Of a stretch of DNA of 64,000 bases, positions 1,717-3,573 are shown one piece after another. This stretch comes from Saprospirales bacterium (lineage in GTDB: Bacteria; Bacteroidota; Bacteroidia; Chitinophagales; Saprospiraceae): contig REEO01000028.1 of the NCBI GenBank assembly GCA_007695035.1, positions 1 through 64,000 on the forward strand. The letters are read 5' to 3'. Position 1 is the stretch's first letter, and every line of letters starts with the position of its first letter. Below the pieces are notes generated by a model. The model was not told the origin of the DNA. It saw only the letters and a list, made by a program, of their open reading frames with translations, and made no database searches. Both the position numbers and the translations under genes were made by a program.

Positions 1717-1748
1717 GAAAGCCATCTAAATTATTTTAGATGGCTTTC
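1717..1748 (+). terminator. hairpin terminator of the outer-membrane barrel gene
   Basis: A perfect 14-bp stem (GAAAGCCATCTAAA, loop TTAT, exact reverse complement) begins 24 bases after the stop codon. It is followed by TTGG rather than a T-run, because an intron-like sequence begins at about 1755. Confidence 0.85.
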
Positions 1749-1754
1749 TTGGTG

Positions 1755-1910
1755 GTGTGCCATGCATACTATCTACTTATAGGGTTAAAGTCCCAAATGC
1801 GCCCAGTTGACAGGGAAGCATTAGCTGATCGCAAGGGTGTCCACTGTGAGGTGGAATCTGAAGGAAGCGTAAGGCAAAACGGAGATGTGACACAGACGTA
1901 CTCGGGTTGA
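1755..1910 (+). mobile_element. 5' fragment of a group IIC intron (domain I only)
   Basis: The stretch starts with GTGTGCC and contains, in order, blocks typical of the 5' end of bacterial group IIC introns: TATAGGGTTAAAGTCCC, CGCAAGGGTGTCC and GTGGAATCTGAAGGAAGC, then GGCAAAAC. These match, as I remember it, the domain I layout of the Oceanobacillus iheyensis IIC ribozyme. Similarity fades after about 1910. No reverse transcriptase and no domain V/VI follow, because the next gene's 3' end lies at 1999. The fragment sits 6 bases behind a terminator stem, the known insertion preference of class IIC introns. It is a truncated relic, not an active element. The 3' limit is approximate. Confidence 0.75.
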
Positions 1911-1998
1911 CTGCCAATTTCCTGTGAGAAAAAGTCAGCAGAAAATATTAAAGCAAGCAGGATTACTCCCACATTTTGTAGAAGTTTCATGGCATTAC

Positions 1999-3573
1999 TC
2001 AATGAACGATAAAGGGTTCTACGCGCTGCATTTTATCACTGGCCATACGAATGTAATACATTCCAGCATCCAGTACTCCGGTGTGGAGGTGAATTCGTTG
2101 ATGTGGACCCATCGGTATGTTTTTTTCACTGGACATCAACATTTTGCCATCGACGGAGAAGACTTCCATGCGAACATTCTGCACCCCGTATTCATTATTG
2201 ATTATCACAGAGGGGTCGGTCCCGGAGGGCACCGGATTTTGATGGAGTCGCATACTGAATTCTGACTCGCTGATTTCGTTCACAGAAACCCCTACATCGC
2301 TGGTTATGAAGCTGAAAGTTGGACTTCTGTCTGCACAGTAGTAGGTGTCGTTCAGGGGCCTGACTCTCCAGTAATAAAATTCCAGTTCATCCAAATCAGT
2401 AAGGGTGTAAGAGGTCCCGTCCACGAACTTCTCTACCATCATATTTAGGCCGAAAAAAGGGAGTTCTGAAACTTCCAGGTAATAATAGGTAGCATTCTCC
2501 GCTGCTTCCCAAACCAATGTGACCTCATCGTGGAAATCTGACTCCTCTCCATCCGTAGGATTAAGTGCGACAATTTCCCCGGCGTCAATAACACCCGTGG
2601 AAGGTGTGCCAAACCCCTCTCTTAAATGACTGCGTGATGATGACATAAAATCAGCCACCATAACATCGACCTGGGTTGGCGTAAATTCGTAGTCAGGGCA
2701 GTTGAGAAAATACCCCATATAGTTGTTTTGCATGGGTTCGATCAAATCCTCATTACGATCGTACACTTCGATATTAAAGGGACCACAGCCGCCGCCGGCA
2801 CTCCAGCCGAATCCAAAGTTGTAATCTGGTGGCGTATCACAGATTCTGTCAGCGGCACTGGTGCAATTACTGCCATCGACCAGCTCCACTTGATTGAATC
2901 CACCTGGGGCGATAACTTGCATAACGGGATTGCCGTGAATGTCTTCATCCCATGGCTCTTGTTCCCAACCAAAAAACGTGTGCTGCAAACTAAAAAAGTG
3001 ACCGATTTCATGAGCCAATACAAAGGTTGAATTTACCCGGTCATTTCTAACCACTACCCAATCATTAGAAGGGTCGTAATATCCGAGTGTAAACCCTCCG
3101 CCACCTCCGGAGGTGGTATTTTGCGCAAAGAAAACATTAAGGGCCCGGTTATCTCTGGCTCCGGATAATATAGCTGTCGCCAAACTCGCATTGTTGAAGG
3201 CAGCATTATTATTGATGTAATTAATACTCCGGTCCTTCATAAAAAACTGGATGTTGTAGCGGCCAAAAGCCTCGTTTAGGATGCACATTTGGTTTATAAT
3301 ATCGGGCTCGCGCACTCCACCTGTACCATCCAGCCTGTTTATGGAGTGAAACTTAATGGGGACATAAATGGTATTTCCTGATCTCCTGAATTCCAGGTTT
3401 TCAGCCATTCTTAAATTGGTTTCAAGGCGTTCAATTTCTTCCGGTCCAGGGTCATAGCCGCAGTGGTGGTGGTCGTGATCTGCAACCACCTGCCCAAATG
3501 TCAAAGCAGGGCTTATTAATGTCAGGGCAAAAACGGCTATAATTAGCCCAATCCGGGTAAAAAACTTAATCAT
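1999..3573 (-). CDS. secreted M43-type zinc metalloprotease with T9SS sorting domain
   Basis: The 524-residue protein is a pappalysin/cytophagalysin-like (M43) zinc endopeptidase. Residues 1-28 form a signal peptide (ends ALTFGQ). The zinc motif HEIGHFFSLQH lies at 188-198 (ligands His188, His192, His198, catalytic Glu189), and the family's Met-turn appears as NNYMGYFLNCPDYEFTPTQ about 95 residues later. A fibronectin III-like segment (about 340-425) follows. The C-terminus, from about 445, is a type A Por sorting domain with VFSVDGK and AGMYYIR blocks, so export through the type IX secretion system is expected. The role is probably degradation of external protein. The divergent gene is mdh; the -7 candidate TAACTTTA (3599-3606, minus strand) differs from consensus in the last base. 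Confidence 0.85.
   Translation of the reverse strand: MIKFFTRIGLIIAVFALTLISPALTFGQVVADHDHHHCGYDPGPEEIERLETNLRMAENLEFRRSGNTIYVPIKFHSINRLDGTGGVREPDIINQMCILNEAFGRYNIQFFMKDRSINYINNNAAFNNASLATAILSGARDNRALNVFFAQNTTSGGGGGFTLGYYDPSNDWVVVRNDRVNSTFVLAHEIGHFFSLQHTFFGWEQEPWDEDIHGNPVMQVIAPGGFNQVELVDGSNCTSAADRICDTPPDYNFGFGWSAGGGCGPFNIEVYDRNEDLIEPMQNNYMGYFLNCPDYEFTPTQVDVMVADFMSSSRSHLREGFGTPSTGVIDAGEIVALNPTDGEESDFHDEVTLVWEAAENATYYYLEVSELPFFGLNMMVEKFVDGTSYTLTDLDELEFYYWRVRPLNDTYYCADRSPTFSFITSDVGVSVNEISESEFSMRLHQNPVPSGTDPSVIINNEYGVQNVRMEVFSVDGKMLMSSEKNIPMGPHQRIHLHTGVLDAGMYYIRMASDKMQRVEPFIVH

Follow-up and report, generated by a model that had tools for sequence, protein, structure and literature searches.

We report that the terminator of a porin-like gene in the window (the whole 64,000-nucleotide stretch of DNA that was analysed) is followed directly by the 5’ end of a group IIC intron, comprising the start of domain I (1755–1891, + strand), and that this sequence breaks off at the 5’ remnant of a second, oppositely oriented gene. 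The arrangement very probably arose by insertion of a IIC intron behind the porin-like gene’s terminator, followed by an illegitimate join to a second secreted-protease-like gene. The relic is an ordinary genomic fossil, one more inactive fragment of a group II intron, and judging by its sequence it appears to lack the parts required for splicing and mobility. The evidence supports the original prediction of a terminator-associated IIC intron relic. Neither of the outcomes named beforehand as refuting it occurred: domain I gives a significant match, and the orthologous terminator of G007, the one sister genome in which it was found, has no intron.

The gene upstream (404–1693, + strand) is an open reading frame of 429 codons that we read as encoding a porin-like or outer-membrane-like protein, and it has no Pfam or NCBIfam match. 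It is present in two of the ten genomes searched, its own (G000) and, among the nine others, G007 alone (contig C10, 79% DNA identity); DNA searches found no orthologue in G002 or G003. It is followed by an intrinsic terminator hairpin (1717–1748, + strand) with a TTAT loop, in which the perfect 14-bp stem described beforehand is confirmed, positions 1717–1730 pairing with 1735–1748. The segment 1711–1756 has a predicted folding energy of −24.6 kcal/mol (z −7.1 relative to shuffled sequences). The GTGTGCC start is also where it was said to be, six bases past the stem at position 1755, and the intervening TTGGTG (1749–1754, + strand) corresponds by analogy to a putative IBS1 position. In G007 the same terminator follows the porin-like gene with no intron behind it, and the next gene is different.

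The covariance-model search that had been proposed for domain I gave a significant match, with RF02001 (group-II-D1D4-3) aligning to positions 1840–1992 at 40.6 bits (gathering score 32; E 8.5e-5, computed for the 64-kb window). It is the one intron match in the window at Rfam gathering scores, the other match being a tRNA, and the same model scores 131.1 and 112.9 bits in the sister copies L027 and L026 respectively. The alignment overruns the end of the intron, its right part lying on protease-gene sequence, and RF02001 indicates a group II intron only, so that the IIC class rests on other evidence. The domain V model RF00029, which is weak for this intron family, has no match up to E 1 in 1650–2100. 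Both of the 5’ end blocks named in the original prediction, CGCAAGGGTGTCC and GTGGAATCTGAAGGAAGC, are seen in the relic.

A DNA search with window positions 1756–1998 has matches in nine of 60 genomes (the window’s own included), eight of which include the intron part; the match in G057 covers 32 bases of the later part only. Within the genus, represented by eight genomes (G000–G007), the intron 5’ sequence is present in five, and with the intact intron described below as the query the family is present in six, a 3’ end in G004 being added. Over its first 136 nt the relic shares 96%, 94% and 91% identity with the three other genus copies that span this part fully, and G006:C128 is 84% identical over 118 nt. 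Shorter matches within the genus lie between 84 and 96%, and the copies in G010 are 75–76% identical.

The closest of these with a complete structure is an intact intron (L026, in G001:C75; L085 is a record of the same copy) in a sister species that the genome listing places in one genus with the window’s genome, and positions 1755–1891 are 96% identical to it. Together with the covariance-model match, this identity establishes the sequence as a group II intron 5’ end. L026 is about 1916 nt long (~1.9 kb) and by our reading of its ends extends from GTGTGCC to CTACTCGAT. It contains a reverse transcriptase (RT) open reading frame of 451 aa that scores 361.5 bits against TIGR04416 (cut-off 300), has the Pfam domains RVT_1 (RT) and GIIM (maturase) only, and is 100% identical at the protein level to one in SLKL01000084.1, a Saprospiraceae metagenome-assembled genome. 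Among PDB entries its best match is the GsI-IIC RT (354 bits), followed by 7uim (297), 6me0 (128) and LtrA (122), the last three of which we take to be IIC, IIB and IIA representatives respectively. By its best PDB match and its Pfam domains it fits a class C RT without an endonuclease; no RT is present in the relic. The domain V/VI region of L026 folds with a z of −6.7, and its domain V scores 28 bits, under the Rfam gathering score of 40, even though the copy is intact.

Insertion behind terminators is described as a habit of class C introns (PMC8919778, PMC4424553), and it holds at all the sites of this family that were counted. Among 15 independent 5’ ends from eight genomes, a set that includes the window and more distant relatives, a hairpin whose stem has 7 bp or more lies directly upstream in all 15, and one with 10 bp or more in 14; at random positions of the window, taken on both strands with genes included, the corresponding frequencies are 1059 and 179 of 10,000. 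For this count G-U pairs and a single mismatch were tolerated, the 3’ arm had to end 0–12 bases before the intron, and hairpins qualified with or without a T run. The weakest site counted, G003:C247, has a stem of only 7 bp and folds poorly. Of the 21 rows listed, those left out of the count were G006:C128, which has the same flank as C180, and the distant relatives L086–L090; of these five relatives, L086, L087 and L090 have a hairpin, and in L088 and L089 it is absent or weak, at a poor best motif match. G007:C70, which has no 5’ end, is in neither site list, and L091 and L092 are likewise left out. Because a hairpin is found upstream at all 15 sites and the RT of the intact sister copy is closest to the GsI-IIC RT, we assign the intron to class IIC, and insertion site and class agree, as had been proposed.

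The 3’ edge of the relic differs from its original description, in which it extended to 1910. Intron sequence stops at about 1884–1893. Resemblance to the second gene begins at about 1884, and resemblance to the intron continues up to about 1891–1893; since these limits overlap, the break falls within roughly 8–10 nt of shared letters, a breakpoint zone (1884–1893, delimited by eye) that resembles both the intron and the gene. Beyond it, positions 1894–1990 (− strand) are the 5’ remnant of the second secreted-protease-like gene, consisting of its signal-peptide region, with the body missing. The gene is intact in G003:C73 and has an intact orthologue in G002:C7, and in the window its first ~100 bases alone remain; when the G000 assembly was searched at the DNA level for the gene, nothing else of it turned up. 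Identity between the window and G003:C73 is 95% over 1594 bases (1903–3496) and 92% over 3368 bases from 1903, and in G003:C73 the second gene continues as a frame of 505 aa (− strand, L028:1718–3235), listed from a TTG; we read its start as the ATG matching window position 1990. Calling its product a protease is a weak call, the M43 match being below its cut-off and the T9SS tail above the NCBIfam cut-off. The adjacent secreted metalloprotease-like gene (1999–3573, − strand) is an intact open reading frame with weak M43 and reprolysin matches just above their cut-offs and a T9SS tail below cut-off, and its stop at 1999 agrees with the earlier statement that the next gene ends within 90 bases.

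Because the relic is followed by a truncated gene, its 3’ edge is a breakpoint and not just a product of decay, a point that the original description missed. The estimate that the 3’ two thirds are gone is right as to the loss but understates it: if the parent resembled L026, 137 of about 1916 nt remain and ~93% is absent. If instead the parent was an ORF-less copy of ~650 nt, as in G006, about four fifths would have been lost, and the loss at the relic need not have included an RT. Domain V, domain VI and a 3’ splice site, all expected of a functional intron, are absent, the sequence past ~1893 being gene remnant. Positions 1892–1998 were considered as further intron, a reading hinted at by RF02001 aligning as far as 1992 and by the occurrence of a GTCAGCAGAA string in L026 as well, and this was rejected since 1903–1996 match the protease locus of G003 at 94% identity.

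None of the genomes searched has the two flanks of the junction together and intact. Either the locus has been rearranged or DNA carrying the porin-like gene has come in as a segment; in both cases the join lies in the intron. In G002 and G003, the second protease-like gene is followed by what we read as an FAD oxidoreductase gene, and in G000 this FAD oxidoreductase block is on another contig (C80:2512–4182), adjoining an IS66 element. As no orthologue of the porin-like gene was found in G002 and G003, we place a chromosomal breakpoint at the end of the relic. G007 (74% complete) has no match to the second protease-like gene, and upstream of its porin-like gene is a transposase frame resembling the IS66 transposase of C80. 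The IS66-type element of C80 (L083:148–2512) has GTAAGCACCCAACCAACCCCC ends and sits where the FAD-oxidoreductase-like gene ends, in the place of the second protease-like gene in the sister species. At the start of the window’s contig, positions 1–182 resemble the last part of an IS66 transposase frame with an IS66-like terminal repeat behind it.

We infer from this arrangement the mode of entry, the kind of rearrangement and the order of events. A group IIC intron would have entered by retrohoming behind the porin-like gene’s terminator, as across the genus. A later illegitimate join at roughly 8–10 nt of microhomology, either a deletion or the far edge of an imported segment, would have brought intron position ~137 up against the initial ~100 bases of the second protease-like gene, with loss of the rest of the intron (domains V–VI and any RT) and of the second gene’s body. 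The join was probably microhomology-mediated. Incomplete reverse transcription is expected to truncate the 5’ end of an intron and not the 3’ end, and it was set aside as a cause, the relic lacking its 3’ end rather than its 5’ end.

Other pieces of the family are present in the window’s own genome. A second 5’ end (C103:1–50) lies behind a different hairpin, and there are intron 3’ ends at C36:1–57 and C74:54445–54499. All three are at contig ends, a position that repeated copies breaking the assembly would explain, and this suggests further, unassembled copies. No intact copy is assembled elsewhere in the genome, where a search for one had been proposed, and the relic’s parent is deduced from the sister species and these contig-end pieces. 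The assembly contains no group II intron RT, its one sub-cut-off match, at C23, being a Drt2-like RT, and domain V (RF00029) had no match among the 150 of 188 candidates scored. The C23 protein, which also matches NF038233, a retron model, was rejected as an intron RT, being a Drt2-like antiviral RT. Its gene adjoins BrxL and PglZ genes at a contig end (L006, G000:C23:1–6000).

These contig ends also raise the question of whether a repeated intron end was misjoined to the protease locus during assembly, in which case the junction would be absent from the organism. The genome is a draft of 107 contigs, three other intron ends sit at contig ends, and the junction flanks occur together in no other genome searched; but the joined sequences, the interior of the intron and that of a unique gene, resemble each other over only ~10 nt, which seems short for an assembly join, the relic and the other 5’ end in this genome differ (46 of 49 positions identical), and the second gene’s body is not elsewhere in the assembly, as expected of a real loss. 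We regard such a chimera as improbable and favour insertion followed by an illegitimate join.

The junction also creates a chimeric open frame of 77 aa (1769–2002, − strand), in which a protease-like signal peptide is fused to antisense intron sequence. The broader proposal that IIC introns behind terminators are recurrent breakpoints in the genus, at which unrelated loci become fused, and that an in-frame 77-aa secreted chimeric protein was created here is very unlikely. Less credible still is that the fragment has been kept as a new small secreted protein: the frame is open, and the antisense intron frame is open in L026 too, but since it is already open in the intact intron alone its openness says little, and the 77-aa frame is probably due to chance. 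There is next to no likelihood that the relic, although only the intron’s first part is left, is a conserved non-intron RNA or a terminator extension merely resembling domain I, as the same blocks occur in an intact RT-bearing intron, follow unrelated terminators, and are absent from the orthologous G007 terminator, the only one found.

As in the class C introns of PMC4424553 and PMC8919778, the relic lies directly behind a hairpin, and its sister copy has an RT closest to the GsI-IIC RT and an intact size of ~1.9 kb; unlike those introns, the window copy consists of the first ~137 nt only. Bacterial group II introns that have lost their 3’ terminus are described in PMC4496777, and like the fragmented introns there the relic retains its 5’ part, has lost its 3’ part and is inactive; it differs in that the sequence across the break can be recognised, as a second truncated gene. 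According to PMC4424553 truncation or inactivation has affected most bacterial group II intron copies, and fragments have been counted in Enterobacteriales (PMC3522654). The evidence on the relic does not exceed this published picture, and by itself the relic matters little; it is a case for which one can name the insertion site, an intron-free site, an intact sister copy and the breakpoint partner, and it reveals a IIC family that is spreading and fragmenting in what is probably a Saprospiraceae genus.

ORF-less copies of the family may merit more attention than the relic. A ~654-nt copy in G006:C180 (L027:3474–4127, − strand) has both ends and domains V/VI with almost no RT frame, sits behind a terminator, and is possibly mobilised in trans. 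A second ORF-less copy, in another species (G007:C70, L011:1501–1853), is missing its first ~29 bases and has a changed 3’ end. The copy at G006:C128:147–1061 (L029) shares the upstream flank of the C180 copy and has a deletion from domain I to the middle of the RT, which is either strain variation or an assembly effect.
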